DNA from: Arcuatula senhousia
Lineage: Eukaryota; Mollusca; Bivalvia; Mytilida; Mytilidae
Length of the DNA: 64,000 bases
Reading direction: 5' to 3'
Assembly: GCA_963971305.1 (NCBI GenBank)
Contig: OZ020304.1
Coordinates: 4,526,001-4,590,000 of the forward strand
How positions within the stretch are numbered: position 1 is the stretch's first letter; each line of letters begins with the position of its first letter. The notes beneath the pieces were generated by a model, which was given only the letters and a program-made list of their open reading frames with translations, was not told where the DNA came from and ran no database searches. This document shows, in pieces, positions 1,784 to 24,816 of this stretch. Both the position numbers and the translations under genes were made by a program.

Positions 1784-2231
1784 TATGGTGGCATATTTCT
1801 GCCAACACATAATCATATACATAACTAGTTAATTAAGTAGATATCTAGTTATCTAACTAGATAAATATCTAGTTATTTAACTAGATAAATTATCTAGATA
1901 TTTAACTAGATAATTAAGTGGTTATCTAGTTATTTAACTAGATATTTAACTAGTTAATTAAGTAGTTATCTAGTTATTTAACTAGATATTTAACTAGTTA
2001 ATTTTAATATCATAACGTGAAAAAATGCATGTTAGCGCTTGTAACTGCCATTATTATATTATTATTCACCTCTATTTTATACGGAAGCGTATAGTGGACT
2101 CGTATTGTCTTAATAAAAACCGATATAACGCACTATTTCTCTTAAATAAAACAACTTTATCTCCTTATAAGACAATAGATCGCGTTATTTAGTGTGATTT
2201 ATTGTATTATAAAGATATTTGGTGCATTAAC
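1784..2231. repeat. outer left arm, first part (split by self-insertion)
   Basis: Terminus, AT-rich array (about 1809-2006) and the start of the conserved arm segment, with the phrase ACGGAAGCGTATAGTGGACT near 2078. It stops at ATTAAC (2226-2231). The rest of the same arm resumes at 19652 with ATTAACTTAAGTCG. The copy at 2232-2690 repeats this stretch almost base for base, which is why the region looks like a 448-bp tandem duplication. Confidence 0.75.
1809..2006. repeat. TCTAG/AT-rich palindromic array (outer left)
   Basis: Reiterated units built from TATCTAGTTA and TTTAACTAGATA, most of them self-complementary. The same array type sits at every foldback terminus or junction in the window: about 2258-2455, 13838-14098, 19296-19612 and 24392-24776. 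Such arrays favour hairpins and unequal exchange. Confidence 0.85.
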
Positions 2232-3444
2232 TATGGTGGCATATTTCTGCCAACACATAATCATATACATAACTAGTTAATTAAGTAGATATCTAGTTAT
2301 CTAACTAGATAAATATCTAGTTATTTAACTAGATAAATTATCTAGATATTTAACTAGATAATTAAGTGGTTATCTAGTTATTTAACTAGATATTTAACTA
2401 GTTAATTAAGTAGTTATCTAGTTATTTAACTAGATATTTAACTAGTTAATTTTAATATCATAACGTGAAAAAATGCATGTTAGCGCTTGTAACTGCCATT
2501 ATTATATTATTATTCACATCTATTTTATACGGAAGCGTATAGTGGACTCGTATTGTCTTGATAAAACCCGTTATAACGCACTATTTCTCTTAAATAAAAC
2601 AACTTTATTTCCTTATAAGACAATAAATCGCGTTATTTAGTGTGATATATTGTATTATAAAGATATTTGTTGCATTAACTTAAGTCGTTTTATTCTTAAT
2701 AATTTTTATTTTGTCTTAAATTACTGCAACTTTTTTAGTTTAAAGTAATGTTTTGTGTTTTAAAGCAATTAGTCATCTCTTAGTTTACTCGTTTTACTTC
2801 AGTAACAAAAAGCTTAGTGACATTAAAATGCACCCGGGACGTGCCCGGGAAGGAAAATCCATCCGAGAGGTTTTTAAATGGTCTCCGAGCTACATATTAA
2901 AAAGGTGTAACATGAACAGAGTAAACGTATTTTAATTGGACAGAGTAAATGTATTTTATCGCATCTTGGTTTTTGTATTCATTAAAACTCATTAAATAAA
3001 GGTAATAATAAAATCATTGACCTTTTCGAAGATCAATCTCAAATGTTCTAGAAGAAAGAAAAAGGAAGAAATACCATATAAATTGAAGGTTGCAATGGTG
3101 TTGACTTGGTACAAGCATTAATTTCAGTATTGATTTGGTAAGTGTCTTTTCGTCGGGGTGGGGCCATATAAAATGACATAGATCCATATTTTAATGAAAA
3201 TTGGTAGACATATAGCTCTTATTGATATACATTCATATATGAAATAAAAATGGGGCCTCGATTTGTAATTAAATGCATTTTTGAAAACGCATTTTTTAAC
3301 AAATTAACAAAGGCGTAAAGGAAAAACGCAGCTTCAATACGATTTATTGGCCAGATTTCACGGAGTTAAGAATCTGGATTATAACATGGTGAATGTCGGT
3401 CGGCTGGCAGACGGGGAAGAAATTTGCAGAACATTTTCTCAGCA
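2232..3444 (+). repeat. foldback unit 0, left arm and adjoining segment
   Basis: Order: terminus, AT array (about 2258-2455), conserved arm (to about 3120, with GC-rich landmark CCCGGGACGTGCCCGGG at about 2833), then a segment containing TTGGCCAGATTTCACGGAG (about 3347). It stops inside TTTTCTCAGCA at 3444. In unit 1 the same sequence continues with ACTACTTATCAC (about 15085), which in this unit resumes only at 10864. The ORF at 2753-2935 is part of the arm and not a gene. Confidence 0.8.
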
Positions 3445-3967
3445 CATGTCCAAGAATCATGGACAAATTCAGGGTAGATAACTCTATTTGAAATTTTGTC
3501 ACCACTGATAACGAGTTATGTAACATGACTATAGCTGGAAACCTATCTGTTGGTGACCTTTTCACACATACGTACTTATTATTTAGTTGAGATAAAACCA
3601 AATTGAATCAATAATCAATAATTTGATAAATCATTATATGTAAATTGTCCATTAATATTTGTGTGTTAGCATTTTTCAGTAACTTCAAGCTCAGTAACAT
3701 TTGAATCAACATTCATGTCATAGACAATGGATAACTTTTTTTTACTTCAACTTTTTTGCATATTTAGGGATATTTCAAGATAAACATAAATGTTTCTTCT
3801 TATTTGTATTTTAAGCAAATTTCAAACATCGACATGGTTAAATAATATTGTGGCATATATATGCGGTTTTGTTTTTTTTTATATTAATTTTGTTTTTCTT
3901 GCTAAAAACATGATACACGAGAAACTGTTTGGTATTCAGCTTTTATTACTGTTATTTGACAGTTTAA

Positions 3968-4589
3968 GGGGGAACTTGCAGGTGATCACATGACCAGCCG
4001 AAAATTAATTTAAACTTGCCTTTTAATTTAATACTAAAAGGTGTTCAAGATTTTGAAATTCCATTAAAAAAATATCATAATGATATATTCTTAACTTTGT
4101 TTTGATATTAAAAGCATTAAAACTATTTTTTTCTTTATTTTGTTAGTTTCATTTTGTGAAATATTCTTCAAACCTAATGGATTCTCATATTTCTGCATTT
4201 TGACAAAGGGAGATAATTTATGTCTAAATTTGCCAATTTTGACCACTTTTTGACATATTTTTGTATTTATCTGAAAAACGAACTCAGAAGCACCCCTTTT
4301 TCTTCATATCATTTTAAAGCAATATAACAGCCCGATATAATATCAAAAAATTACAAAATTCTATTGATAAGATTTTTCAAAAATCAGAATTTTCCTTTAA
4401 AATTATGTACTTTCTTTAACATTTCAATGTAAAAAAGTCAACCTTCAGAACCAGTTATCTCGAAAACTACCTCAGAAGCATGCCTTTTTCGAGGTGGATT
4501 TTCAAAGTGTATCTCTTGATGTGTCTATTTGCAAATTTTAAAGAAAATCTATTGACAGGAAATTTTTGGTGTTTGGTGCAAGTACCCCC
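3968..4589. mobile_element. MITE with TTAA flanks (piggyBac/Kolobok-like)
   Basis: TTAA (3964-3967) is followed by GGGGGAACTTGCA, and the right end is TGCAAGTACCCCC followed by TTAA (4590-4593). So 13-base inverted ends with one mismatch lie between TTAA duplications, the target used by piggyBac-type and Kolobok transposases. The 622-bp body is non-coding and AT-rich, with a degenerate internal repeat around CTCAGAAGCA. Confidence 0.7.
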
Positions 4590-4690
4590 TTAAGCGGTGT
4601 GTGTCGTTATTCTATTTATTTATTTGAATTGGTTTATTTTTTTATATATATTTTATCAAATTGCGTCAGGCAATGCAAAAAGGAACTTAA

Positions 4691-4870
4691 GGTCCGTTCA
4701 CACATGAAATAGAGAATAAGCCAATTATGAATTAAAGTATTTGAGGTCAGAGCTTAAGCACAAAGGTACAAAAAAATTATTAAAACCACCACTATGTAGT
4801 ATAATTCATGAAATACAAATGTTGTATATTTTATTGAAATATATGACTTGATGTACAGTGTAAACGGGCC
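4691..4870. repeat. small inverted-ended repeat, possible MITE
   Basis: Ends GGTCCGTTCACAC (4691) and GTGTAAACGGGCC (to 4870) are inverted repeats with two mismatches. TTAA stands directly left of it but not on the right. Non-coding, 180 bp. Weakly supported. Confidence 0.35.
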
Positions 4871-5318
4871 TCTAGACCAACATGTTTAGATTTTGGCGAT
4901 TATTAAAGATTAATTCTTAAGAATTTAAGAAACAAAAACGTACGGTACCCTTATCTTTACTGAAGACGAACTTCAAATGTTACAAGTTTTGAAAAAAAAG
5001 ATGTAAGGGGGAAATTATGAACCTTGTCTAGTTTGAATTCCTTAGAAAATGGAGTTGCAAATGTAGCCACGATCCTTATTAAAAGATATAGATAGATAAA
5101 ATAAAAAGATTTAACGGCTTTTACGAAATTTTTGCTTTATTTCTTAGAGTCCTTTGTCTTTGGTGGTTCTTATAAGATATCCTATACTTCTTTTATTTTA
5201 TAGTTTGGCGTACATGCTGTTTATTAGTCTTTTTTTCTGTTGAAAATTGGAAACAAAACGTGACTTCATTATTAATCATATAATTTGTCCGAGGCTTCGC
5301 AAGAAAATCCCACTTAAT
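4871..5318. other. non-coding AT-rich stretch
   Basis: Interior of the 7.4 kb insertion. Many stops in all frames and no repeat or motif that I recognise. Confidence 0.5.
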
Positions 5319-5815
5319 CAGTCTCGTGTGGGACCCGGGTGGCGAATAGGCCCACATCAGTGCCTAGTTTGTCGTAGGAGGCGACTAATGGTATTGGGAT
5401 TCTGACGTCGGGTCAGCGCTCAGCCCACAGCGCGACCAAGGTGTGTATTCTAGGTGGCTGAATAGGGTTGCCCTCGTCCGCAGGGGTTGTGAGGCCTATT
5501 ATAGGGAAACCCTGACCGGTGACCAAAGTGGGCCAACGTGTGTGATGAGTGCCACGCTTCATACACGTAAAAATCACTCTGTGTATCACCAAATAGGCTA
5601 AATTTTCTGACCCTACCCACCTCTCCCCTTTTCCTGTTTTTTTTTTCTTTCTTAAAAAGTTGCTGTTTCCTTTGTTTCCCACCCCACCCCATGTTTCATA
5701 TCATTATCATCATCATGTCATGTTCATTTTAACAATCTTTCATGTTCATCGCCTTCAAATAACCTATAAAGTGTTGCGAGGGCCTAAAACACAACTCACT
5801 CACTCACCCACTTGA
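5319..5815 (+). repeat. dispersed SINE-like repeat with GTCGTAGGAGGCGACTAATGG core
   Basis: A GC-richer block starting near AGTCTCGTGTGGGACCCGGG and ending with a CATCATCATGTCATG-type tail and AACTCACTCACTCACC. Reverse-orientation relatives lie at 16345-16620 (sharing the rule 'CCTATTCAGCCACCTAGG...ACACACTT' and the tail GGCGATGAACATG) and at 63795-64000 (sharing GTGGGAAACAAAGGAG and AACATGAAATGATGATGATA). Three copies in 64 kb indicate an abundant family. Overlapping ORFs on the minus strand at 5413-5692 are not genes. Confidence 0.65.
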
Positions 5816-5896
5816 TCACACATGTACATGTATTTTAAACAAACTTTAAGCGTTGATTTGCTCAGAGCTCTTTATTAGTTAAGGTAAGACTGGATT

Positions 5897-8428
5897 CACG
5901 GCCACCAGACGGTCAAACGAGCGAAAGTCTGTTAATTTACCTGTATCATGGAGATAAATGCGGCAGAAGTCTGTTACTCGAGTTGGTCAAAGACTGTCAA
6001 TAAAATGTTATCGAGAAAATACCCACAGGTAAGTTGCATTTTTTATTATTATCATTTCTATAGAATCTTATTTGTAAAACAAAATATGTCTGACAAAATG
6101 GTTGCTCGTTTTGCATTGATATACAAAATTGCGTTTTGATTGGATTTAAACAAAATAAGAAATTTAAGGAGGCGTCCGACTCAATCAAATTTATATATGT
6201 GTACAAAATATTCCAACATAACATTTTTATCATTTTTGTTGTTTTTTTTCGATAATTTTACACAAAATGATTGTGTTATCGTTTGTGATGTGTGAAATGA
6301 TCTCATAAGATTCTAACCTCAAAATATTGTATGTTTTCGTGTCTTATAAATGAAGATATTGATTGTTATTGAAAATTCGGTCGGTTAATGAGTCATGTCA
6401 ATTGAATTTTGGTCTGTTAACAGGTCGGTTACGAGTAAATCAATATAGATTATTGCAGCTAGCAATCTGATCTTGAAGGTTCACAAAAATCTTAGTGTTC
6501 CTAACTTTATTCCATTCTACATTACCATGTATCTCTTCAAGTAACATGTTCTCCATTTCCACTTCTCGATACTTTATGTGAATGGTCAGAAACATATTTC
6601 CTTAATTTGTTTTCTGTTCTCTGTCTTATTCATCAAAATGCAATTTTAAAAATGCATTTATTTTTTTTCATTTTTCCAGAATAGAAAATGAAAAGAAAAA
6701 GAAATTCGAATTATTGAAACAGTAAGTTTCTATGAAAAAAAAGAAAATCCTAGAATGAAAACCCTTATGACGGAATTAAATTTATAATCCTCAAAGTAAA
6801 AATAATTTTTGCTTCCAATGTATGGTGAATACATGTACTTTTACATATCAAGATTTAAGTAGTGAAACTAGTGTCATTTAAGACCAAACATAAAAATCTC
6901 CGTCTTTCCTGTTACATGTGTGAAACAAGAATATGTCCAAAAGACATAATGTCCCATCTCGCAACATTTATTTTTTTCTGCAATCACTAAAGCATCAACA
7001 TGGTTGCTAAGGCACTTGTCCGTCATATGGAATGGACTTTCACTTTAACCATTCTTCTTTAAGTGGTCATTCATGCGGAAAATATAGGTCACAGCCAGCG
7101 TCCGAAGCTTGCATTGTGCTTAGCCTCACTAGGTGTACCTACCATAACAATATAGTAATGTGGCACATGTCATTAATCGTGAATGGACTCAATCCATTTT
7201 TCTTTAAGAGGCCATTCATGCAGAAAATATAAGTCACATCCAGCATCCGAAGCATGCATTGTGATAAGCATCATTAGGTGCACCTACCAGACCAATATGG
7301 TTGCTATGACACTAATCAGTAAGGAGGAATGGACTTTAACCATTCTTCTATAAGTGGTCATTCATACAGAAAATATAGGTCACATCCAGCATCCGAAGCA
7401 TGCATTGTGCTTAGCATCACTAGATACACCTACAATACCAATATGATTGATGTGGCATTTGTCAGTAGGTGGGAATTTGGAAATATGGGGATTTGGGACG
7501 GACAGATGAACAGACGGACGAACGGACCCTAAACGGACTAAATGCCCCTCTACTTTTGTAGAACGGGCATAAAAATAGAGATTGTAGGAAGGCATTATTT
7601 CTTACATTTTTGTTTTTACCTTGATAAAATGAAGAGCTTAATAAAAGTTAAACGGTGCTTAAGCAAAATATGACAATGAAAATGTTATATAAGGCATGAA
7701 AAATATGGTATATAGGGAAACAGGAAACACATGTTTTTATTTGGCCCAATATATTGGCATCCAATTACAAACACTCTAAGGTATAAGGAAAACAAGTAAC
7801 ATTTTCGTTTCTAACATAATGAAGAAATCTGATAAATAACTCGCATATATAAAGCACTGTATGCATAGATACATTAAGCATTATATTAAAAACGAATGGG
7901 GATAATAAAACTCTTGACAGACAGTTTTTACTTTGACTTACTCTTTAACCGACATTATCTTTAGAGTTTACTGAAAATCCTGTTTTAAAAAAGACAGAAT
8001 AATGCAAATATCTCCAAATGTATCCAGTATTATTATGGGGTGTAAGATTAACAATTATGATACTGATAGTTCCACTTTTCGGAGTAAATACATTTGAAAA
8101 ACTCATAAATTCAATTTTTGAACATGATTTTTTCTTCTACCTCTCTTATCGCCTTTTCATTTCATTTATAACTCCGTAGACAAAGTTTTTACTTTTTGTG
8201 TCCATTCAATCCGCTAATGATAATCGTTTTGTCAGACAGTTTTTGTTTTGGCCAAAAACAAATCATTATTTCAAAAAAGTAATGATTTTGTACATAAATG
8301 ACTTTTAAAACTAATATTTACTCTTAACAGTCATAGAACCGACTCGAGTAACAGACTTCTGGCGCATTTATCTCCATGCTACAGGTAAATTAACAGTCTT
8401 TCGCTCGTTTGACCGTCTGGTGGCCGTG
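5897..8428. mobile_element. 2.5 kb TIR element with 5-bp TSD GGATT
   Basis: The first about 100 bases (5897-5997) and the last about 98 (8331-8428) are inverted repeats of roughly 95% identity, starting CACGGCCACCAGACGGTC. GGATT flanks both sides (5892-5896 and 8429-8433). A 5-bp duplication with ends starting CAC recalls Transib elements, but no transposase is seen and the ends are not the canonical Transib heptamer, so this is only a suggestion. The interior is AT-rich and non-coding and contains the tandem array at 7030-7575. Confidence 0.82.
7030..7575 (+). repeat. 146-bp tandem array ending in a hairpin
   Basis: Three and a bit units with starts near 7050, 7195 and 7341, each carrying CATTCATGCAGAAAATATA-type sequence and a GCATCCGAAGCATGCATTG core. 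The array is followed by an ACGGACGAACGG microsatellite, then a hairpin at 7543-7569 (TGCCCCTCTAC, loop, GTAGAACGGGCA) and ATAAAAATA. This end design is the same as at 22910-22975 although the units are unrelated. The layout recalls non-autonomous Helitron-like elements. ORFs across the array are not genes. Confidence 0.7.
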
Positions 8429-8433
8429 GGATT

Positions 8434-9221
8434 AGGGTATGCTCCGCACAATGTCACACCTTACATGCATTGTCGTTCCTTTTTTTTCATTTAGAAGTAT
8501 GGAACTCTCATACATTTATACTTTGAGAGTTATATATACCAGTGACATTTTAAGAAAACTAGAAAAGAAAATTGCATCAATATCAGGCAATGATATATTT
8601 TCATTCATTAAAAACATAAAATTAATTAGATAAATCTATGCACAATATTAATAGGACAAGATAATCTTTGAACGAAATTAAAAAAATCCGGGCTCAAAAC
8701 GTAGCCAAAAAATGAACAATCATAACCATTATAGATTAACAAGATATAAAATTCTACTATACTATCGTATAATATACTTATTATGTATGGCAAACAATAT
8801 TTGACACTTTAATAAACTATTTTGTTTTTAAAGTTAAATCCTTTAAAAGTTGAAACTCGAAAATAAATAATTTTGGTGTTATAGATATCAATTCTATAAA
8901 AAAAGGAACACATGTTGATAATTAACACTTGTCCTTGTTTAAACATTTTCACAAAGACATGATGCCCCTCGCTGTTATTTATTATCGCCAATTAGCAAAT
9001 AATCAACTGATCTAGTCTGAGAAAGTATAAAACAAAAAATGGCTAAATTTTAACTTAAATTTGACAGAAAAAAAATAAAGTTTAAACTATTTTTGTTGAT
9101 TCCTGTAGAAAATTTAACATTTGAAGCATTTTTTGGGACGTAGGGCTAAGATTTCCGTTGAGAAATAAATTGACGGCGATTTTTTAAACTAGAGCCGTTT
9201 TACCATTTTAGGCTAATTTAT
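8434..9221. other. non-coding AT-rich stretch
   Basis: Sequence of the 7.4 kb insertion between two inner elements. No coding potential and no recognised repeat. Confidence 0.5.
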
Positions 9222-10545
9222 TGTCTCGCCTGCGACGAAAAGTCGCGGAAGGCGAGACATAGGTATTACTTTCCGGCGGCGGCGGCGGCGACGGCGGCGG
9301 CATCGTAAACTTTTTTGTAAGACTTTTGTGGAGGATGAATTGCTGGAAAAGTATAATAGCTAGGCATCTGATATTCGGTATACAGACAGTTCAGGTTATG
9401 GTCTACGCAGCTGTCACCATGCCGTGTGACCCTGACCCCATTTTCACGCTCCAGTGACTCTGTGAACTTAGGTGTTTTTTCAGGCTGTAAAGTTTTTTGT
9501 AAGACTTTTGTGGACGATGAATTGCTGGAAAAGTATAATAGCTAGGCATCTGATATTTGGTATACAGACAGTTCTGGTTATGGTCTAGGCAACTGTCACC
9601 ATGCCGTGTGACCCTGATCCCATTTTCACACTCCAGTGACTCTTCGAACTTAGGTCTTTTTTAAGGCCGTAAAGTTTTTTGTAAGACTTGTGGACGATGA
9701 ATTGCTGGAAAAGTATAATAGCTAGGCATCTGATATTTGGTATACAGACAGTTCAGGTTATGGTGTACGCAGCTGTCACCATGCTTTGTGACCCTGACCC
9801 CATTTTCATACTCCAGTGACTCTGTGAACTTAGGTCTTTTTCAGGTAGAAAACTTTTTTGTAAGACTTTTGTGGACGATGAATTGCTGGAAAAGTATAAT
9901 AGCTAGGCATCTGATATTTGGTATACAGACAGTTCTGGTTATGGTCTAGGCAACTGTCACCATGCCGTGTGACCCTGATCCCATTTTCACACTCCAGTGA
10001 CTCTTCGAACTTAGGTCTTTTTTAAGGCCGTAAAGTTTTTTGTAAGACTTGTGGACGATGAATTGCTGGAAAAGTATAATAGCTAGGCATCTGATATTTG
10101 GTATACAGACAGTTCAGGTTATGGTGTACGCAGCTGTCACCATGCTTTGTGACCCTGACCCCATTTTCATACTCCAGTGACTCTGTGAACTTAGGTCTTT
10201 TTCAGGTAGAAAACTTTTTTGTAAGACTTTTGTGGACGATGAATTGCTGGAAAAGTATAATAGCTAGACATCTGATATTGGGTATACAGACAGTTCAGGT
10301 TATGGTTAACGTAACAGTCCCCATGCCATGTGACCATGACCCCATTTTTAGGGTCCAGTGACTCTGTGAACTTAGGTTTTTTTTCAGGCAGAAAACTTTT
10401 TTTTTTGTGTGGACAATAAATTGCTTGAAAAGTATAATAGCTAGGCATCTGATACTGGTTATACAGACACAATTTGTGTTTATTTCAAGAAATGAAAGCT
10501 TAGGTGGTTGATTTTAGTGATGGTGCCGGCAGGCGAGACATACTT
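9222..10545 (+). repeat. 181-bp tandem array element with 5' hairpin
   Basis: Seven units of about 181 bp, with starts (TTTTTTGTAAGAC) near 9311, 9492, 9674, 9853, 10034, 10213 and 10395. They are preceded by a near-perfect hairpin at 9222-9259 (TGTCTCGCCT, GCGAC, loop, GTCGC, AGGCGAGACA) and a CGG run at 9276-9303, and followed by GCAGGCGAGACA at 10529-10540. Units 3-4 are repeated almost unchanged as units 5-6, a 361-bp higher-order duplication. Minus-strand fragments at 61160-61470 and 63235-63320 share the two ends; because similarity at 61160 runs past GAGACA, the real right end lies slightly beyond 10540. Confidence 0.8.
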
Positions 10546-10863
10546 TTAGTGGCCACACTTGTATAGAATTCTATTGGAAAATAACGTAATTTTTTCACCA
10601 ATTTTCAACCAAAAAATGACAGAAAATGTATTTACTTTAAACTACTATACGATAAACTGCACGAAAGATAAATGTTTAAGGTATTTTGTCAGACGTAGGG
10701 CTAAGGTTTTATGAGATTAGTTACTTGTCAATTGAAGAAAGTATAGGGACTGTCAAAATTTTTCCATTACGTTCTATTGTAATCAGTTGATTGTGAATGG
10801 TGTCCCCCCTATGGTGACAAAATAATTGGAATCAATTAAAGTTGTCCACCATTCTTGAGTATG
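10546..10863. other. right flank of the 7.4 kb insertion
   Basis: Non-coding. Contains the right inverted end of the 3445-10863 element (10800-10863). Confidence 0.5.
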
Positions 10864-11490
10864 AACTACTTATCACAGCCACTTGATATTTGGTATACAG
10901 CATCATGGTGGGGTCTCATTACGTGGGATTCTATTTAAGGTCTTTCGCCCACCTACTTACTGATCATTTAAGTTGTCATGCCAATCAGTTCACTCAAAAA
11001 GCTACATGTTTTACATGTTTCAGGTCTGTAGCTCACCTACATTTGTACTTTCTGTTAAACAAAATCCGGTCATTTTTGTCTTTGACAATTCTCCCCAAAA
11101 GCTACATATTATTGACATTGTCCCAATTTCATCGATTTTTGCTGATTTTTGCCTATTTTTTTATCTGAAAGAATGTATGCACACATAAACCACAACTCCA
11201 TGCTTGCAAAAAATGTGTAAAATGATGAAATCTATCATTTCTAAAAAAAATGAAGGCTTTCACGCACCAAATGATTCTAATGTGATGCCATAATTACGTC
11301 ACAATTAATGAAATTTGCCTAATATGATGTGTTTTCTTTGTATATATACACATAAGTTGATAATACTTATAATTAAATATCATTTGAACCAACAACATTT
11401 TCTTTAGCCATTTATGGACCCTAATGCCCCTCATCTTTTTATCCGTAACGTCATTTTTAACGTAATGTACCACTTCAACAAGAATATGTA
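10864..11490 (+). repeat. foldback unit 0, right portion of interior (block X)
   Basis: Resumes unit 0 after the insertion. The block is non-coding and is shared with 15085-15601 (plus 16965-17100) and, reversed, with 21460-21833 and 22972-23215. The run TTTGTATATATACACATAAG at about 11337 is the empty site for the element inserted at 15602-16964, and the run near 11155-11175 is the empty site for the one at 21834-22971. The overlapping ORFs are not conserved between copies. Confidence 0.75.
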
Positions 11491-12470
11491 CCAATTGGGC
11501 ATCCGAATGCCAAAAATTCGAAGGACAGAGACACAATTAGTAACAACCAACGAGAACAGGATTGAAAATAGACAACATAAAACACAAAATTACATAAGTA
11601 ACTGAAAAGCAATCAAAAACGAGGACTTAGGGAGTTTGCACACCTGCCGCGTAGCCAACATGACGTTCTGCCAGGGAAATCGTTGTAAGTCCTGCAAGCT
11701 CTGTAGTAACGAATGGAATGGATTGTGATACGCAGACTCCATAATGTGGAGCGAACGGAATGTTGAATTGCTTTACAAGAAAGGAAAGTTGACAATTGAA
11801 ACGTTGAAGTCATCACGCCTGTTATAAAGCTTTGTTGAAAGTTTTCCTTGAGATGTAGATCTCAATATGAAGCAGACTTCATACAATACGTTGTGTTTTT
11901 TTTTTATCTCAAGTTCACGAGGATACATGTACTTAGTATATAAGATAATTAAAGTCACCAAATCGAAAGGATATCATCAATATAACAGAAAGTGAAGAGG
12001 GCCTGACAATTAAAAGAGAATTGTCTAGAAAGAGCTAGTCTACGATTTTTTGTCTAGAAGTGATTTTAAGAAGTCTGCTTTATATGAATGAAGCAACAAA
12101 TCAGCAAAAAAGGTGCACAATTATTGCACATTGAAGTCCCTATTGTTTGCTGAAAAACATATTTACCAAACTATAGATATGTTGTCTATAAGAAGTTGAG
12201 CGTGTCGGTTATTTATTTTACTATAAATGTGTTCTTTTTCTTAGACTCACTGATGACAGAGTAAGTGTTAGTATAATCGACTAACAGAAATTTATACTGG
12301 CGGTTTTCATTTCTTTTAAAAGCTGCGTTTAATTAGCTGTGCTAATGGTGATTTGAGTTGTTTTTGTGGAGTAGAAGTGGAAAAAAATCGAAAGTTTTGA
12401 TACTTGTGCAACTGATTAGAGTAGTCGATTATTCTTTCTTTGCTATCAATGAACAAACGTACAGATAGAA
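11490..12470 (-). pseudogene. Penelope-like reverse transcriptase remnant, unit 0
   Basis: Read on the minus strand, the sequence matches the C-terminal half of the reverse transcriptase intact at 56717-57388: recognisable fragments of an ELEIK, an LSTKLYN.RDDFN.SIVNFPF and an RACRTYNDF segment. Stops and frameshifts are frequent. It is followed on the opposite strand by a short copy of the same element's 3' region (about 12470-12640), giving a back-to-back arrangement that is repeated in units 1 and 2. Confidence 0.7.
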
Positions 12471-12701
12471 GACGAAACGGATTCTAGCAAGTCTGCTGCT
12501 GAATTGACAGCTGGCTACGCGGCGGATGTGTTAGCGAGCAGAAACTGCTTTCTCTTCCGAAGCACCTGATCATGAGTTCACTATCTGCCCTGCTGACTTT
12601 TGACTTTCGGGTGCCCCATTGGTACCTCTGCTTCTTTTAATAAACCAAGCCAAGACCATCGCGCCCTTCAATTTCTTGTTCTTTTTCTTAAACATTTGAG
12701 A

Positions 12702-13835: not shown

Positions 13836-13837
13836 TA

Positions 13838-14098
13838 TCTAGATATTTAACTAGATAACTACTTATTATCTAGATATTTAACTAGATATTTATCTAGATA
13901 AATATCTAGATAACTACTTATTATCTAGACAATTATCTAGATATTTATCTAGATAAATTATCTAGATAAATATCTAGATAACTACTTATTATCTAGATAA
14001 TTATCTAGATAATTTATCTAGATAAATATCTAGATAATTATCTAGATAAATATCTAGATAATTATCTAGATAATAAGTAGTTATCTAGATATTTATCT
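13838..14098. repeat. TCTAGATA array at the dimer junction
   Basis: Densely palindromic units (TATCTAGATA, ATTATCTAGATAAT) between two inverted arms. Unlike the outer ends it has no TATGGTGGCATATTTC terminus, so the two units of the dimer are fused through arm-internal sequence. Confidence 0.85.
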
Positions 14099-15601
14099 TA
14101 CGGAAGCGTATAGTGGACTCGTATTGTCTTAATAAAACCCGTTATAACGCACTATTTCTCTTAATTAAAACAAATTTATCTCCTTATAAGACAATTAATC
14201 GCGTTACTTGGTGTGATATATTATATTATAAAGATATTTTTTGCATTAACTTAAGTCGTTTTATTCTTAATAATTTTTATTTTGTCTTGAATTACTGCAA
14301 GATACAATAGTAAGAGTTAAGAGCGTATTAATTTAACACGTGTTGTGCTATAAAAGGCAACAACTTTTTTTAGTTTAAAGTAATGTTTTGTGTTTTAAAG
14401 CAATTAGTCGTCTTAGTTTACTCGTGTTATTTCAGTAACAACAAAAAACTTAGTGACACTTAAATGCAGCCGAGACATGCCCGGGAAGGAAAATGCAGCC
14501 GAGAGGTTTTTAAATGGTTTCCGAGCTACATGTAAAATAGGTGTAACATGAACAGAGTAAATGTATTTTAATTGGACAGAGTAAATGTATTTTATCGCGT
14601 CTTGGTTTTTGTATTCATTAAAACTCATTAAATAAAGGTAATAATAAAATCATTGAACTTTTCGAAGATCAATCTAAAATGTTCAAAAAGAAAGAAAAGG
14701 AAGAAATACCATAGAAATTGAAGGTTGCAATGTTCTTGACTTGGTACAAGCATACATTTCAGTATTGATTTGGTTAGTGTCTTTTCTTTAGGGTGGGACC
14801 ATACCAAATGACATAGATCCATATTTTAATGAAAATTGGCAGACATATAGTTCTTATTGATATACATCCATATATGAAATAAAAATGGGGTTCACATGCC
14901 TCGTTTTTTAATTAAATGCATTTTTGAAAACGCAATTTTCAACAAATTAACAAAGGCGTTAAGGAAAAACGCAGCTTTAATACGATTTATTGGCCAGATT
15001 TCACGGAGTTAAGAATCTGGATTATAAAATGGTGAATGTCGGCCGGCTGTCGGGCGGGGAAGAAATTTGCGGAACATTTTCTCAGCAACTACTTATCACA
15101 GCCACTTGGTGGGGTCTCATTACGTGGGATTCTATTTCAGGTCTTTCGCTCACCTACTTCCTGATCATTTAAGTTGTCATGCCAATCAGTTCACTCAAAA
15201 AGCTACATGTTTCAGGTCTGTCGCTCACCTTTTTTCTGTTAAACGAAATCCGGTCATTTTTTACTTTGCCAGTTCACTCCAAAAGCTACATATTATGGAA
15301 ATTGTCCTAATTTCATCGATTTTTGCTGATTTTTGCACATTTTTTGTCTGGAAGAATGAATGCACACATAAACAACAACTCCATACTTGCAAAAAAATGC
15401 GTAAAATGATGAAATCTATCATTTCTAAAAAAATGAAGGTTTTCATGCACCAAATGATTCTAAAAAAGGGAAATATGTACTGAAAGCATCCAAAGTTGCA
15501 GATTTTCTCCATTTGACAAATATTACCGTCTAATGTGATGCCATAATTACGCCACAATTAATGAAATTTACCTTATTTGATGTGTTTTCTTTGTATATAT
15601 A

Positions 15602-16964
15602 TGTTACAGTAAATTCGTGTAATCAGTAAATACGTGAATTTCCTTAAACTGTCAGTAAATTCATGAATTTACTGGGTGATTTAGTAAATACATGTATTTC
15701 CTGAGTTGACCAGTAAATACGCGTATTTACTGATTTTTCTTGCACATTTTACACGCATTTACTGGACAAGGTTGGTGACCCCAAATGTAGTATCTAACTT
15801 CAATTTTAGGTTTAAAACATCAAACTATGACAATGCTTAACATTTATTAAGGCTTATGAGATTTTACGAGCCTTTTGGTAATAAAACTTAATAAACTGGG
15901 ACATGTGCCCAACGCGGTAGAAATTGGGTGGCCCTGAAGTAATAATTTCCTGGGTCTTCAGGGTATAATGGGGAAAACCTTATCCAAAACCATAGTACAG
16001 CATATTGTTAGGAAATATTTTACGTTTCTCGCACGTTGAAGAACCCTACTGCAGGTCACGATATGAGTAGGTCTCACGGGATCCAATGCAGGAGGCATGA
16101 TTACATCCCTTCATCCCGGATTGGACTTGTCAATGTGTTACAAATATCCTCCATCTCATCATCATTCATGTTTATTTTGTCATCCCTTACATGTTCATCT
16201 CCCTGATAGTCAAACTCGTGCTGCTAGTTTCTGTCTGTTTTGTTTATGAATGAAATATTGTCTAACAAAATGAAACAAACAACAATTTACTTTTTTCAAA
16301 GTCAGGTTGAAGTAGAAACAAAATGGATATTATTCATAAGTAAGTGAGTTAGTTGGTGTTTTATATCCTTGCAACACTATATATGTTATTTAAAGGCGAT
16401 GAACATGAAAAAAAAAAGATAATATAACCATGAAATGATGATGGAAAGTATGTGGGAAACATAGGAACAATAAATTATAAGAGCGGTACAGGGGAAAGGG
16501 CGGAAAATTTAACCTAAGTGGTGCACTACTTGGCACGCAGTCCACTAAGCCAGTAAGGCATCTTTAACGTGCATGAAACTGACAACCGCCGCCCTATTCA
16601 GCCACCTAGGGTACACACTTGATAAATTAATCGGAACTATTAACAACAAAGAATTTAAAATGTTGAAAAATGTACAATTCACCAAAATGTCACATTTGTG
16701 AAGAATAGTAAAATGCTAATAACATTGTTTTTGTATTAACTTTATAACAAATTTGACACGGAAAATAATATTCTACAAAGTTTTATCTTCCAAAGTAAGC
16801 ATCAGTAAAAACGTGTAAAATCTCTTCTAAATTTCAGGAAATTCATGTATTTACTGACCATTTTTAGAAAATACACGTATTTACTGGGTGCCTTAGTAAA
16901 TTCACGTATTTACTAAATTTCAGTAAATACGCGTATTTACTGATTACACATATTTACTGTAACA
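15602..16964. mobile_element. 1.36 kb TIR element with palindromic subrepeats, TSD TATA
   Basis: Begins TGTTACAGTAAAT and ends ATTTACTGTAACA, 13 exact inverted bases, followed inward by about 120 bases on each side made of reiterated palindromes of the type AGTAAATACGTGTATTTACT. The empty site TTTGTATATATACACATAAG is present at about 11337 in unit 0; comparison gives a 4-bp duplication (TATA, though the AT run makes the exact length uncertain). The middle holds two stretches of the dispersed family also seen at 5319 (about 15905-16235 and, reversed, 16345-16620). No transposase. Confidence 0.8.
16345..16620 (-). repeat. dispersed SINE-like repeat, reverse copy
   Basis: Minus-strand relative of 5319-5815: shares the AACACCAACTCACTTACTT-type tail, the GCGATGAACATG phrase and the end CCTATTCAGCCACCTAGGGT. 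It is nested in the TIR element 15602-16964. Confidence 0.6.
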
Positions 16965-17099
16965 TATACACATAAGTTGACAATACTTATAATTATCATA
17001 ATATTTGAACCAACAACATTTTCTTTGGCCATTTATGGATCCTAATGCCCCTCATCTTTTTATCCGTAACGTCGTTTTTAACGTAATGTCCCACTTTAA

Positions 17100-18290
17100 A
17101 AAAGAAGCGGTACCAATGGGCCATCTGAATGCCAAAAATTCGAAGAGCAGAGACAAAACCGGTAACAACCAACGAGAACAGGATGGAAAACAGAAAACAG
17201 AAAACAAAAAAATACATAAGCAACTGAAAAGCAATCAACAACGAGGACGCTCCGGAAGAGTAAGGGGTTCATGATTGCTTACCTGCTGCAAAGCCAACTG
17301 TCAATTTAATGTGCCAAAGCCGGTAAAGGAAGGCGGCACAATAAAACTTATGACAAACCAACATCTGCACTCATCTGAGAGATTGAAATCCCATATTTGT
17401 CTATAAGCGAATGATGTCTTCGATAAAATAGCTAGAGTGAAGAAAGCATCCGAGGAGCATTATAACCCCGTTTTTGTGTTAGACGTGACGTTCTGCCAGG
17501 GAAATCGTTGTAAGTCCTGCAAGCTCTACATAGTAACGAATGAATTGTGATACGCGTACTCCATAATGTGGAGCGAACGGAATGTTGAATTGGTTTACAA
17601 GAAAGGAAAGTTGACAATTGAAAAGTTGAAGTCATCACGCTTGTTATAAAGCTTTGTTGAAAGTTTTCCTTAAGATTCTATTTCGAGATGTAGATCTCAA
17701 TATGAAGCAGACTTCATAGAATACGTTGTGTTTTTTTTTTATCTCAAGTTCACGAGGATACATGTACTTAGTATATAAGATGATTACAGTCACCAAATCG
17801 AAAGGATATCATCAATATAACAGAAAGTGAAATTAAAAGAGAGAGCTGGTCTACGATCTGTTTTGTCTAGAAGTGATGTTAAGAAGTCTGCTTTATATGA
17901 ATGAAGCAACAAATCAGCAAAAAAGGAGCACAATAATTGCACATTGAAGTCCCTGTTGTTTGCTGAAAAACACGTCTACCAAACTTATATTTGTTGTCTG
18001 TAAGAAAGTTGAGGGTGTCCGTTATTTATTCTTCTGTAAATGTGTTCATTTTCTTCTAGACTCACTGATGACAGAGTAAGCGTTAGTATAATCGACTACC
18101 AGAAATTTTCATTTCTTTTAAAAGCTGCGTTTTATCAGCTGTGCTAATCGTGATTTGAGTTGTTTATGTGGAATAGAAGTGGAAGAAATCGAAAGTTTTG
18201 ATGCTTGTGCAAGATGAAACTGATTTAGAGTAGTCGATTATACTTTCTTTTTTATCAATGAACAAACGTACAGATCAAAGACAAAACGGA
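17100..18290 (-). pseudogene. Penelope-like reverse transcriptase remnant, unit 1
   Basis: Same position and orientation in unit 1 as 11490-12470 in unit 0. Minus-strand fragments include CRACRTYNDFPGRT, PAYGV-like degenerate sequence, a KLYN.RDDFNFSIVNFPF-like run (about 17590-17660) and, further along, an IPHKQLKSRLA-like stretch (about 18120-18190). Many stops. A short plus-strand piece of the same element's 3' region follows (18290-18430). Confidence 0.7.
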
Positions 18291-18803
18291 TTCAGTCTGC
18301 TGAATTGACAGTTGGCTACGCGGCGGATGTGTTAGCGAGCAGAAACTGCTTTCTCTTCCGAAGCACCTGATCATGAGTTCAATCTCTGCCCTGCAGACTT
18401 TTGACTTTCGGGTGCCCCATTGGTACCTCTGCTTCTTTAAATAAACCAAGCCAAGACCATCGCGCCATTCAATTTCTTGTTCTTTTTTCTTAAACATTTG
18501 AGATTGATCTTTGAAAAGTTCAATGATTTTGTTATTACCTTTATTAAACGAGTTTTAAAGAATACAAAAAACAAGATGCGATAAAATACATTTAATCTGT
18601 TCAATTAAAATACATTTACTCTGTTCATGTTACACCTATTTTACATGTAGCTCGGAAACCATTTAAAAACCTCTCGGATGCATTTTCCTTCCCGGGCACG
18701 TCCCGGGTGCATTTTAGTGTCACTGGGCTTTTTTGTTACTGAAGTAAAACGAGTAAACTAAGACGACTTATTGCTTTAAAACACAAAACATTACTTTAAA
18801 CTA

Positions 18804-19014
18804 ACTGACTGATGGGTATTTATAGTCGTGACTAGGGGAAAGCCCCTCTGAATCGACTAATACCTATACAGGTATAGACTCGCTATGTGCTATGGGTCGT
18901 CCAGCCCATGACACACCACCGCCAGTGTTAGCTGCTCCAGAGTATCCTTTGTTATCGCTGGAGCAGGGCCCGTCTTTCACCACGGGAAGGTACTGGTCGG
19001 AATTCTGGAAGACT
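18804..19014. mobile_element. short structured retroposon, copy 1 (TSD CTTTAAACTA)
   Basis: A 211-bp element absent from other arms, flanked by the 10-bp direct repeat CTTTAAACTA (18794-18803, 19015-19024). It is rich in stems: GGTATT with AATACC, AGTCG with CGACT, AGGGG with CCCCT near the left end, then ATGGGTCGTCCAGCCCAT, and CTGCTCCAG with CTGGAGCAG near 18930-18965. No ORF, no poly-A and no pol III boxes that I can name. Its second copy at 23240 keeps the stems but has a different loop. Confidence 0.75.
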
Positions 19015-19295
19015 CTTTAAACTACAAAAGTTGTTGCCTTTTATAGCACAACACGTGTTAAATTAATACGCTCTTAACTCTTATTATTGTATCTTGCGGT
19101 AATTTAAGACAAAATAAAAATTATTAAGAATAAAACGCTTTAAGTTAATGCAACAAATATCTTTAGAATACAATATATCACACTAAATAACGCGATTTAT
19201 TGTCTTATAAGGAGATAAAGTTGTTTTATTTAAGAGAAATAGTGCGTTATAACGGGTTTTATTAAGACAATACGAGTCCACTATACGCTTCCGTA

Positions 19296-19651
19296 TTATC
19301 TAGATAAATATCTAGATAATAAGTAGTTATCTAGTTAAATATCTAGATAACCCCTTAAAATAGAGGTGAATAATAATATAATAATGGCAGTTACAAGCGC
19401 TAACATGCATTTTTTCACGTTATGATATTAAAATTAACTAGTTAAATATCTAGTTAAATAACTAGATAACTACTTACTTAACTAGTTAAATATCTAGTTA
19501 AATAACTAGATAACCACTTAATTATCTAGTTAAATATCTAGATAATTTATCTAGTTAAATAACTAGATATTTATCTAGTTAGATAACTAGATATCTACTT
19601 AATTAACTAGTTATGTATATGATTATGTGTTGGCAGAAATATGCCACCATA
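19296..19651. repeat. AT-rich array and terminus of the nested copy
   Basis: TCTAGTTA units, then GTTATGTATATGATTATGTG and the terminus GGCAGAAATATGCCACCATA ending at 19651. It includes the stretch GCAGTTACAAGCGCTAACATG that is also seen inverted at 2028-2055. ATTAAC follows, the right half of the nested copy's target duplication. Confidence 0.8.
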
Positions 19652-20309
19652 ATTAACTTAAGTCGTTTTATTCTTAATAATTTTTATTTTGTCTTAAATT
19701 ACTGCAAGATACAATAATAAGAGTTAAGAGCGTATTAATTTAACACGTGTTGTGCTATAAAAGGCAACAACTTTTTTAGTTTAAAGTAATGTTTTGAATT
19801 TTAAAGCAATAAGTCGTCTTAGTTTACTCGTTTTACTTCAGTAAAAAAAAGCCCAGTGACACTAAAATGCACCCGGGACGTGCCGGGGAAGGAAAATGCA
19901 CTCGATAGGTTTTAAATGGTTTCCGAACTACATGTAAAATAAGTGTAACATGAACAGAGTAAATGTATCTTAATTGGACAGAGTAAATGTATTTTATCGC
20001 ATCTTGGTTTTTTGTATTCATTAAAACTCGTTAATTAAAGGTAATAACAAAATCATTGAACGTTTCAAAGATCAATCTCAAATATTTAAGAAAAAAGAAC
20101 AAGAAATTGAAGGGCGCGATGGTCTTCGCTTGGTTTATTTAAAGAAGCAGCGGTACCAATGGGGCACCCGAAAGTCAAAAGTCAGCAGGGCAGAGAGTGA
20201 ACTCATGATCAGGTGCTTCGGAAGAGAAAGCAGTTTCTGCTCGCTAACACATCCACCGCGTAGCCAACTGTCAATTCAGCAGACTTGCTAGAATCCGTTT
20301 TGTTTTCTA

Positions 20310-21460
20310 TCTGTACGTTTGTTCATTGTTAACAAAGAAAGTATAATCGGCAACTCTAAATCGGTTGCACAAGCATCAAAACTTTCGATTTCTTCCACTT
20401 CTACTCCACATAAACAACTCAAATCACGATTAGCACAGCTGATTAAACGCAGCTTTGAAAAGAAATGAAAACCGCCAGTATAAATTTTTGGTAGTCGATT
20501 ATCTGTCATCAGTGAGTCTAAGAAAAAGAACACATTTATAGAAAAATAAATAACCGACATGCTCAACTTTCTTACAGACAACATATCTATAGTTTGGTAG
20601 ACGTGTTTTTCATCAAACAATAGGGACTTAAATGTGCAATAATTGTGCACCTTTTTTGCTGATTTGTTGCTTCATTCATATAAAGCAGACTTCTTAAAAT
20701 CACTTCTAGACAAAAAAAAAATCTCTTTCTAGACAATTCTCTTTTAATTTCACTTTCTGTTATTTTGATGATATCTTTTCTATGTGGTGACTGTAATCAT
20801 CTTATAAACTAAGTACGTGTATCCTCGGGAACTTGAGATAAAAAAAAAGCTACAACGTATTCTATGAAGTCTGTTTCATATTGAGATCTACATCTCGAAA
20901 TAGAATCTCAAGGAAAACTTTCAACAAAGCTTTATAACAGGCGTGATGACTTCAACTTTTCAATTGTGAACTTTCCTTTCTTGTAAATCAATTCAACATT
21001 CCGTTCGCTCCACATTAAGGAGTCTGCGTATCACAATTCATTCGTTACTACAGAGCTTGCAGGACTTACAACGATTTCCCTGGCAGAACGTCACGTCTAA
21101 CACAAAAACGGCTTGCACGGGGTTATAATGCTCTTCGGATGTTTTCTTCGCTCTAGCAATTTTATCGAAGACATCATTCGCTTATAGACAAATATGGGAT
21201 TTCAATCTCTCAAATGAGTGCAGATGTTGGTCTGTCATAGGTTTTACTGTGCCTTCCGTTATCGGATTAGGCACACTTAATTGAAAGTTGGCTACGCGGC
21301 AGGTGTGCAAACTCCCTGAGTCCTCGTTTTTGGTTGCTTTTCAGTTTCTTATGTAATTTTGTGTTTTATGTTGTCTGTTTTTCATCCTGTTCTCGTTGGT
21401 TGTAACTGGTTTTGTCTCTGCTCTTCGAATTTTTGGCATTCGGATGCCCAATTGGTACCT
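20310..21460 (+). pseudogene. Penelope-like reverse transcriptase remnant, unit 2
   Basis: Plus-strand fragments in order: an HK.LKSRLAQLIKRSFEK-like stretch (about 20410-20465), NFLTDNI-like sequence, a YPRELEIK segment (about 20818), SKLSTKLYNRRDDFNFSIVNFPF-like sequence (about 20905-20990), and a 3' region near 21340-21450. Frameshifts and stops break it everywhere. The minus-strand ORF at 20288-20650 is antisense and not a gene. Confidence 0.7.
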
Positions 21461-21833
21461 ATTCTTCTTTAAATGGGACATTACGTTAAAAACGACGTTA
21501 CGGATAAAAAGATGTGGGGCATTAGGATCCATAAATGGCCAAAGAAAATGTTGTTGGTTCAAATGATATTTACTTATAAGTATTATTAACTTATGTGTGT
21601 ATATACAAAGAAAACACATAATTGTGACGTTATTATGGCATCACATTAGACGGTCATATTTGTCAAATGGAGAAAATCTGCAACTTTGGATGCTTTCAGT
21701 ACATATTTTCCTTTTTTTTAGAATCATTTGGTGCATGAAAGCCTTCATTTTTTTAGAAATGATAGATTTCATCATTTTACGCATTTTTTTGCAAGTATGG
21801 AGTTGTGATTTATGTGTGCATACATTCTTTCAG

Positions 21834-22971
21834 ACTAAACTAGAAAAACTGTGAGTCGCAGCTCACAAATAAATACCCCCACCCCACAAAACAATTAATC
21901 AGATAAAATTTAGAATAGGAGATGCACATCTACATTATGTCACAAAGATTGTGTGTAGGTTTCATGAAAATCCATCAAGGGGTTTAGGAGGAGTTGCAGA
22001 TAAGAGATGGGCACCCCCATGTAGTCGAATGGCTGAGTCCATGTATTGCTATGGGAAACCCCAAAATCATTTTGATCAAACTTTCAAATAGTAGGTGCAC
22101 ATTTATATTATGTTAAAAAGATTGTGTAAAAGTTTCATGACAATCCATCAAGGTGTTTAGGATGAGTTGTGGATAAGAGATGGGTACCCCCATGTAGTCG
22201 AATGGCTAAGTCCATGTTTTGCTATGGGAAACCCCAAAAATCATTCTGATCAAATTTTAAAATAGTAAGTGCACATCTACATTTTGTCACAACAATTGTG
22301 TGTAAGTTTAATGAAAATCCATCAAGGGGTTTGGGAGGAGTTGCGGATAAGAGATGGGTACCCCCATGTAATCAATGGCTAAGTCCATCTTTTGGTATAG
22401 AAAACCCCAAAAATCATTCTGATCAAATTTTAAAATAGGAGGTGCATATCTACATTATGTTAAAAAAATTGTGTGTAAGTTCCATGAAAATCAATCAAGG
22501 GGTTTAGGAGGAGTTGCGGATAAGAGATGGATACCCCCATGTAGTCGAATGACCAAGTCCATGTTTTGCTATGGGAAACCACAAAAACCATTCTGATCAA
22601 ATTTTAAAATAGTAAGTGCACATCTACATGATGTCACAACAATTGTGTGTAAGTTTCAGGAAAATCCATCAAGAGGTTTAGGAGGAGTTGCGGATAAGAG
22701 ATGGGTACCCCCATGTAGGCGAATGGCTAAGTCCATGTTTTGCTATGGGAAACTCCAAAAATCATTCTGATAAAATTTTAAAATAGTAGGTGCACATCTA
22801 CATTATGTCACAAAGATTGTGTGTAAGTTTCATGAAAATCCACCAAGGGGTTCAGGAGGAGTTGCGGATAAGAGATGGGTACCCTGAAGTGTAACGGAAG
22901 GACGGACGGACGGAAGGACGGACGGACACCCCAATCACTATATACCCCCCACTTTTGAAGTGGGGGGTATA
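21834..22971 (+). repeat. 174-bp tandem array element ending in a hairpin
   Basis: Six units of about 174 bp (landmark GTGCACATCTACATTATGT near 21922, 22095, 22269, 22442, 22615, 22790), then an ACGGACGGACGG run and a perfect hairpin at 22943-22969 (TACCCCCCACTT, loop, AAGTGGGGGGTA) followed by ATAAAAATA. The left end has AATACCCCCACCCCAC, a partial inverted match of the hairpin. The uninterrupted site is visible at about 11155-11175 on the opposite strand, which fixes the insertion. Non-coding; Helitron-like in style. Confidence 0.78.
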
Positions 22972-23239
22972 AAAATAGGCAAAAATTAGCAAAACTCGAT
23001 GAATATGTAGCTTTTGGGGTGAACTGTCAAAGTCAAAAATGACCGGATTTCGTTTAACAAAAAGTAGGTGAGCGACAGACCTGAAACATGTAAAACATGT
23101 AGCTTTTTGAGTGAAATGATTGGCATGACAACTTAAATGATCAGGAAGTAGGTGAGCGAAAGACCTGAATATCAAGTGGCTGTGATAAGAAGTTGCTGAG
23201 AAAATGTTCTGCAAATTTCTTCCCCGCCTGCCAGCCGAC

Positions 23240-23444
23240 TGACTGATGGGTATTTATAGTCGCGACTAGGGGAAAGCCCCTCTGCGTCGACTTTAATACC
23301 TAAACAGGTATAGACTCGCTATGTGCCATGGGTCGTCCAGCCCATGACACACCACCGCCAGTGTTAGCTGTTCCAGGTACATACGCCCTGGAGACAGGGC
23401 CCGTCTTCCACCACGAGGAGGTACTGGTCGGAATTCTGGAAGAC
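23240..23444. mobile_element. short structured retroposon, copy 2 (TSD CCTGCCAGCCGAC)
   Basis: Same family and orientation as 18804-19014, flanked by the 13-bp direct repeat CCTGCCAGCCGAC (23227-23239, 23445-23457). Most of the 205 bp match copy 1. The main difference is a stem-loop at about 23365-23400, where the loop is GGCGTATGTAC-type instead of CGATAACAAAGGATA. Long variable target duplications point to retroposition by a LINE-type machinery. Confidence 0.78.
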
Positions 23445-23689
23445 CCTGCCAGCCGACCGACATTCACCATTTTATAATCCAGATTCTTAACTCCGTGAAA
23501 TCTGGCCAATAAATCGTATTGAAGCTGCGTTTTTCCTTTACGCCTGTGTTAATTTGTTAAAAATTGCATTTCAAAAATGCATTTAATTAAAAAACGAGGC
23601 CCCATTTTTATTTCATATATGGATGTTTATCAGTAAGAACTATATGCCTGTCAATTTTCATTAAAATATGGATCTATGTCATTTTGTAT

Positions 23690-24391
23690 GGTCCCACCGT
23701 AAAGAAAAGACACTAACCAAATCAATACTGAAATTAATGCTTGTACCAAGTCAAGACCATTGCAACCTTCAATTTATATGGTATTTCTTCCTTTTTCTTT
23801 CTTCTAGAACATTTGAGATTGATCTTCGAAAAGGTCCACGATTTTATTATTACCTTTATTTAACGAGTTTTAATGAATACCAAAACCAAGATGCGATAAA
23901 ATACATTTACTCTGTCCAATTAAAATACATTTACTCTTTTCATGTTACACCTTTTTAATATGTAGCTCGGAGACCATTTATAAACCTCTCGGATGCATTT
24001 CCTTCCCGGGCACGTCCCGGGTGCATTTTAGTGTCACTAAACTTTTTTGTTATTGAAATAAAACGAGTAAACTAAGACGACTCATTGCTTTAAAACACAA
24101 AACATTACTTTAAACTAAAAAAGTTGATGCCTTTTATAGCACAACACGTGTTAAATTAATACGCTCTTGACTCTTATTATTGTATCTTGCAGTAATTAAA
24201 GACAAAATAAAAATTATAAAGAATAAAACAACTTAAGTTAATGCAACAAATATCTTTATAATACAATATATCACACTAAATAACGCGATTTATTGTCTTA
24301 TAAGGAGATAAAGTTGTTTTATTTAAGAGAAATAGTGCGTTACAACGGGTTTTATTAAGACAATACGAGTCCACTATACGCTTCCGTAATT
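23690..24391 (-). repeat. outer right arm of the foldback element
   Basis: Reverse complement of the arm at 19652-20150 joined to 1784-2231, and of 2690-3125. Landmarks: CCCGGGCACGTCCCGGG (about 24005) and AGTCCACTATACGCTTCCG (about 24370). Confidence 0.8.
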
Positions 24392-24816
24392 TTAAGAGGT
24401 TATCTAGATATTTAACTAGATATTTAACTAGATAAATATCTAGATAACTACTTATTATCTAGATATTTAACTAGATAAATTATCTAGATATTTAACTAGA
24501 TAAATATCTAGATAACTACTTATTATCTATATTTTTTTAACTAGATAAATTATCTAGATATTTAACTAGATAAATATCTAGATAACTACTTATTATCTAG
24601 ATAAATTATCTAGATATTAAACTAGATAAATTATCTAGATATTTAACTAGATAAATTATCTAGATAATAAGTAGTTATCTAGATATTTATCTAGTTAAAT
24701 ATCTAGATAATTTATCTAGTTAAATAACTAGATATTTATCTAGTTAGATAACTAGATATCTACTTAATAAACTAGTTATGTATATGATTATGTGTTGGCA
24801 GAAATATGCCACCATA
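24392..24816. repeat. AT-rich array and right terminus of the outer copy
   Basis: Reiterated TATCTAGATA and TTTAACTAGATAA units, ending with GTTATGTATATGATTATGTG and GGCAGAAATATGCCACCATA at 24816. Followed by ATTTTC, the second half of the outer target duplication. Confidence 0.85.

Follow-up and report, generated by a model that had tools for sequence, protein, structure and literature searches.

The locus examined here lies in a stretch of 64,000 nucleotides (nt) from the bivalve Arcuatula senhousia (Mytilidae; GenBank assembly GCA_963971305.1, contig OZ020304.1, positions 4,526,001 to 4,590,000 of the forward strand), hereafter the window. Positions 1784 to 24816 of the window are bounded by inverted copies of one terminus and by a 6-bp duplication, and the question that they raise is whether these 23 kb are one large transposable element, as an earlier note had proposed, or something assembled from smaller ones. 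Rather than a single element, the interval is a nest in which three copies of one family occur together with unrelated insertions. The family is very probably a non-autonomous, foldback-armed DNA transposon family of IS3EU-like (IS3EU/GingerRoot) type, as judged from its terminal sequences and target site duplications.

Termini and target site duplications of the nest

The 20-nt terminus TATGGTGGCATATTTCTGCC is found at positions 1784 to 1803 (forward) and 24797 to 24816 (reverse), which are the outer ends, and ATTTTC stands directly outside each of them as an exact 6-bp duplication. This much of the earlier description stands, whereas its count of two termini does not: the window contains four exact copies, at 1784 and 2232 in forward orientation and at 19632 to 19651 and 24797 to 24816 in reverse, with the pair 2232/19651 bounding a second unit. 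The chance expectation for this sequence in the window is 0.01, with up to three mismatches allowed. All four termini present the form TATGG..CCATA, and their first 130 nt are the same save for one base (position 48 of the 24816 end).

The six bases outside the four termini read, in order, ATTTTC, ATTAAC, ATTAAC, and ATTTTC, and the ends therefore nest, with 1784 paired to 24816 and 2232 paired to 19651. Both target site duplications (TSDs) are exactly 6 bp long and no longer (2/2 insertions). Two random positions of the window shared a 6-mer in 1,146 of 2,000,000 draws (5.7e-4), and at this rate the chance of two correctly nested matches is about 3e-7. The nested ATTAAC pair refutes the single 23-kb element: the outer copy, E3, consists of 1784 to 2231 and 19658 to 24816 (5,607 bp, or 5.6 kb), and the remainder is a 17.4-kb insertion that carries the two other copies, E1 and E2. 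The boundaries are as follows.

1778 to 1783, unstranded: left copy of the outer TSD, ATTTTC, read from the sequence
24817 to 24822, unstranded: right copy of the outer TSD, ATTTTC, read from the sequence
2232 to 19651, unstranded: inner insertion of 17,420 bp with the same termini inverted, carrying E1 and E2
2226 to 2231, unstranded: left copy of the inner TSD, ATTAAC, the final 6 bp of the outer module A
19652 to 19657, unstranded: right copy of the inner TSD, ATTAAC

The point of entry can be read by comparison among the arms themselves. The normal passage from module A to the adjoining module B1 reads ..GCATTAAC-TTAAGTCG.., and five of the six such junctions in the window are uninterrupted (2672, 14243, 13667, 24232, and a diverged one at 19144), four carrying the exact sequence GCATTAACTTAAG. 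The sixth is broken exactly at ATTAAC, where GCATTAAC stops at 2231 and ATTAACTTAAGTCG begins at 19652. As this junction is split at ATTAAC and its paralogs are intact, the inner unit entered the left arm of E3 and duplicated ATTAAC. The uninterrupted paralogous arms thus supply, for the inner insertion, a counterpart within the window of the empty sites that the earlier note had sought in related haplotypes. Such nests can be dissected by a simple rule, namely, to locate all copies of the terminus and to pair their TSDs.

Structure and kinship of the arms

The terminal arms span about 0.9 to 1.0 kb and are composed of the 130-bp conserved end, an array of CTAG palindromes, the A-tail, and B1. 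Their foldback character, already proposed from the sequence, is borne out by a CTAG density that ranges from 2.9 to 6.8 per 100 bp over the five stretches with arrays for which it was measured, versus 0.22 in the region from 27 to 64 kb, and by the folding of 1804 to 2003 as single-stranded DNA (z of −10.65). For the foldback element Galileo, the repeats of the terminal inverted repeats (TIRs) are proposed to be secondary transposase binding sites (PMC3573991, PMC4079207), and by analogy the CTAG repeats may serve the same role here.

The arms group mainly by end, not by copy. Identities between copies are 96.3% (left arm of E1 and right arm of E3), 95.7% (right arm of E2 and left arm of E3), and 94.8% (right arms of E1 and E2), whereas the two arms of one copy share 93.1% (E1), 93.4% (E2), and 92.0% (E3). 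This grouping supports the descent of all three copies from a single ancestor in which two distinct ends and the reverse transcriptase (RT) relic described below were already present. One type of end comprises the outer left terminus and the two inner termini, which show 0 to 1 differences in the first 200 nt and have the segment 2002 to 2079 in common at 98.7 to 100%.

Classification of the family

The properties that bear on classification are the 6-bp TSD (2/2 insertions), the TATGG..CCATA termini (4/4), and TIRs longer than 30 bp. IS3EU elements of rust fungi are described with 6-bp TSDs, TIRs of more than 30 bp, and ends of the form TAYGG..CCRTA (PMC12730594). Complete IS3EU families are said always to have TA..TA termini and usually a 6-bp TSD, with IS3EU and GingerRoot taken as one group; of the 45 IS3EU families in Repbase in 2022, 17 were autonomous and the majority non-autonomous (PMC10045372). 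Oyster satellites bear the label DNA/IS3EU, and the superfamily has thus been annotated in a bivalve (PMC8268682). Because the TSDs and ends match the published IS3EU signature, no undescribed class of element is needed; the earlier suggestion of one is unsupported, and a nested IS3EU-like family takes its place.

As the earlier note had stated, there is no recognizable transposase in the open reading frame (ORF) pieces scanned, which is what a non-autonomous copy would lead one to expect. Of 10 window frames or relics submitted to Pfam, 9 matched nothing, and the tenth (12946 to 13110) matched an unrelated family below threshold (E value of 0.021). No Pfam family was matched by 43 open pieces of at least 48 amino acids (34 in 3445 to 9300, 1 in 10470 to 10900, and 8 in 15560 to 16964), a scan that a decayed transposase broken into pieces of less than 48 amino acids would escape. 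Elsewhere in the nest, where named pieces only were scanned, one of six in one batch (18258 to 18554) gave an insignificant match (E value of 0.26).

Several points weigh against the IS3EU-like nest as read here. Membership in IS3EU is likely, not proved, being read solely from the ends and the TSD length, and the scanned ORF pieces yielded no IS3EU transposase. The TAYGG..CCRTA rule was formulated on rust-fungus families (PMC12730594), and in the sources consulted molluscan IS3EU is attested only through the oyster satellites (PMC8268682). Searches of viral_contigs (with the 20-mer, a degenerate 18-mer, and a 28-mer of the A-tail) and of genome_contigs (with the 20-mer) retrieved no copies; these collections are viral and prokaryotic, not eukaryotic, and zero matches in them say little about mussels. 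The outer insertion site is seen only filled, with no empty site. Beyond the first 130 nt the outer right end is of the other type, without the 2002 to 2079 segment, and the outer ends are therefore no full-length matched pair, a difference that would be accounted for by gene conversion from the inner unit. Finally, the left arm of E2 fits the clustering of arms unclearly, with 93.9% identity to the left arm of E1, 93.2% to the right arm of E3, and 93.4% to its own partner.

The alternative that survives best is an undescribed class of TIR transposon whose 6-bp TSD and TATGG ends resemble IS3EU by chance. A transposase that would prove kinship was not found in the ORF pieces scanned, and long CTAG-palindrome arms are not among the IS3EU descriptions in the excerpts of the two papers (PMC12730594, PMC10045372). 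Nevertheless, both the TSD length and the terminal pentamer obey the published IS3EU rule (PMC12730594). The foldback form, moreover, has been suggested to arise independently in separate lineages through transposase loss and TIR elongation (PMC4079207), so that the arms require no new class, and this alternative is unlikely.

Organization of the three copies

The copies were delimited by BLAST of their modules against the window. All three (3/3) share one order, an A-B1 arm, B2, D, a reverse-oriented RT relic, and a B1-A arm, with E3 oriented opposite to E1 and E2. E2 spans about 5.7 kb, which, like the 5.6 kb of E3, counts foreign insertions. The features, in order, are as follows.

1784 to 2231, forward: module A of the E3 left arm (terminus, CTAG array, conserved tail)
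2232 to 3434, forward: E1 left arm, with A at 2232 to 2679, B1 at 2680 to 3067, and B2 at 3068 to 3434, by BLAST
3445 to 10866, unstranded: X, about 7.4 kb of unrelated DNA inserted in E1, borders approximate
10897 to 12701, unstranded: E1 D block (10897 to 11307) and reverse-oriented RT relic (11344 to 12701)
12708 to 13255, reverse: separate, less decayed RT fragment after the E1 relic
13250 to 14702, unstranded: head-to-head junction of the E1 right arm (B1', A-tail') and the E2 left arm (A-tail, B1)
14703 to 15560, forward: E2 modules B2 and D
15599 to 16964, unstranded: unrelated TIR insertion TGTTACAG..CTGTAACA in E2
16964 to 18503, reverse: E2 RT relic
18473 to 19651, reverse: E2 right arm, with B1', insertion C (18804 to 19016), and A', ending at the inner terminus
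19658 to 20106, forward: E3 B1, resuming the left arm broken at 2231
20076 to 21602, forward: E3 RT relic
21619 to 23243, reverse: E3 D' in two parts (21619 to 21839 and 22971 to 23243)
23238 to 23447, forward: insertion C in E3, with CTGCCAGCCGAC on either side
23446 to 24816, reverse: E3 right arm, with B2', B1', and A' with the terminus

A CTAG array of about 280 bp links E1 to E2 and lies between the A-tail' of E1, which extends to 13823, and the A-tail, B1, B2, and D of E2, which span 14099 to 15560. Both 20-mers are absent from this junction, most likely through recombination or deletion between the palindromic arrays.

The foreign insertions have structure of their own. X contains tandem arrays at 7.0 to 7.5 and 9.3 to 10.5 kb, the latter region including an array of 180-bp units (9305 to 10469), and an inverted pair (5897 to 6010 and 8312 to 8428; about 117 bp, 90%) that encloses a 2.5-kb block. 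The TIR insertion in E2 shows an apparent TATA duplication, and its uninterrupted counterpart site lies near 11340 to 11360 in E1. The two copies of insertion C, at 18804 to 19016 (213 bp) and 23238 to 23447, share 89% identity and have flanking repeats of about 10 to 12 bp (CTTTAAACTA and CTGCCAGCCGAC, respectively). The D' of E3 is interrupted by a stretch with a tandem array of 174-bp units (21905 to 22884), directly past which a hairpin, CCCCCCACTTTTGAAGTGGGGGG, is found at 22945.

The reverse transcriptase cargo

The RT cargo that the earlier note had placed inside the element is present as a relic in each copy. The relics share 37.6 to 39.0% identity over 194 to 248 aligned residues with a 233-amino-acid ORF at 56687 to 57385, and the best short stretch, in the E2 relic, reaches 60.5% over 114 amino acids. 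They are identified as RT because homologs of this ORF carry PF00078 (RVT_1): the precomputed domain is present on 11 of 120 homologs, among the matches listed, and all five relatives scanned gave an RVT_1 match, each below the curated cutoff. The ORF itself has no Pfam match. Its family is very large, with 7,682 of 8,000 scored candidates at an E value of ≤0.001, and the window also contains it outside any foldback arm at 34.7, 48.3, and 56.5 kb. The separate fragment at 12708 to 13255 is 91% identical at the nucleotide level to 57074 to 57642. A further frame, at 51994 to 52377, matches RVT_1 above the Pfam cutoff (E value of 2.5e-13) and is an RT distinct from the cargo relic.

That the RT was the engine, with a retroelement bearing inverted terminal repeats (Penelope-like) having built the whole structure, is very improbable, even though the relic occupies the identical place in 3/3 copies, with a pair of inverted repeats (about 59 bp, 78 to 80%) close to its two ends. 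The same RT family stands outside foldback arms at the three places named above, the element ends with their 6-bp TSDs sit about 0.9 kb or more beyond the RT, and the relics are decayed to the 37.6 to 39.0% noted over their longest stretches. The RT is read as an old, decayed passenger retroelement.

Assembly of the nest

The ends and duplications could, in principle, also stem from tandem or inverted duplication by recombination instead of transposition. Segments 1784 to 2231 and 2232 to 2679 are in-register tandem duplicates (440/448 bases identical), and palindromic arms favor rearrangement; recombination would not, however, put ATTAAC at both inner borders while splitting an arm that is intact in five paralogous places, nor would it put ATTTTC at both outer borders, which makes this origin still less probable than an RT engine. 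Polintons (Mavericks) have long TIRs, a length of 15 to 20 kb, core genes such as those for PolB and integrase, and AG..CT ends, versus TATGG..CCATA here. A Polinton remnant, to which the total span of 23 kb and the 6-bp TSD, shared with Polintons (PMC10045372), might point, is the least probable of all and was rejected on unit size and ends, as the span is a nest in which E2 and E3 measure about 5.7 and 5.6 kb, respectively, and the ORF pieces scanned against Pfam showed no Polinton protein.

For the IS3EU-like family, transposition would depend on an autonomous IS3EU relative as the source, in trans, of a DDE transposase. This enzyme would bind the conserved ends, cut, and join with a 6-bp stagger. 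The CTAG arrays may fold or recombine, whereby arm length would vary and E1 would have become fused to E2, a fusion that may have preceded or followed entry into E3. A tentative extension, possible but doubtful, is that an IS3EU lineage gained CTAG-palindrome foldback arms and that two neighboring copies, once fused, moved as a 17.4-kb composite into a third copy, taking along RT relics and about 7.4 kb of foreign sequence. If so, a conserved end of only about 130 bp would suffice for an IS3EU transposase to mobilize multi-element composites, and, were the composite move confirmed, foldback arms would enable a small non-autonomous transposon to haul long unrelated sequences within a genome rich in repeats.

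Surroundings of the nest

Two direct repeats resembling long terminal repeats (LTRs) flank the nest.

1154 to 1537, forward: left LTR-like repeat, 97.4% identical over 384 bp to 25881 to 26264, without about 170 bp at its start
25712 to 26264, forward: right LTR-like repeat, apparently TGTAAC..GTTACA, with its start placed by eye

Together they look like an LTR retroelement that received the outer copy E3. Further away, a long open frame at 59268 to 60389 matches Sulfotransfer_2 (E value of 1.3e-35) and is likely a host gene.

Comparison with known transposons

The family resembles IS3EU in its 6-bp TSD, in ends (TATGG..CCATA) that fall within TAYGG..CCRTA, in TIRs far longer than 30 bp, and in being non-autonomous. 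It differs from IS3EU, as the excerpted sources describe it, in its 0.9- to 1.0-kb CTAG-palindrome arms and internal RT relic, with no transposase found here. The titles and abstract openings of the literature found describe no IS3EU foldback element.

With the foldback elements Tetris and Galileo the family shares long, repeat-bearing TIRs, variable arms, many noncoding copies, and recombinants (PMC4079207, PMC3573991). Tetris differs in its TSDs of 8 to 10 bp, for which its authors suggest Mutator (PMC4079207), and Galileo, of the P superfamily, in its 7-bp TSD (PMC3573991), and both have other ends; membership in these Mutator or P foldback groups (TSDs of 7 to 10 bp) was rejected, as 6 bp was seen twice. 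The KolobokP composite-like transposons of bivalves likewise form multimeric units that are usually flanked by TSDs, but they are described with long terminal direct repeats, TSDs of 3 to 5 bp, and an encoded transposase (PMC9587614). Two traits are mildly novel, namely, the arms of CTAG palindromes and the 17.4-kb unit that holds two copies and has a TSD of its own. The family is an ordinary kind of element, non-autonomous and IS3EU-like, in an unusual foldback form.

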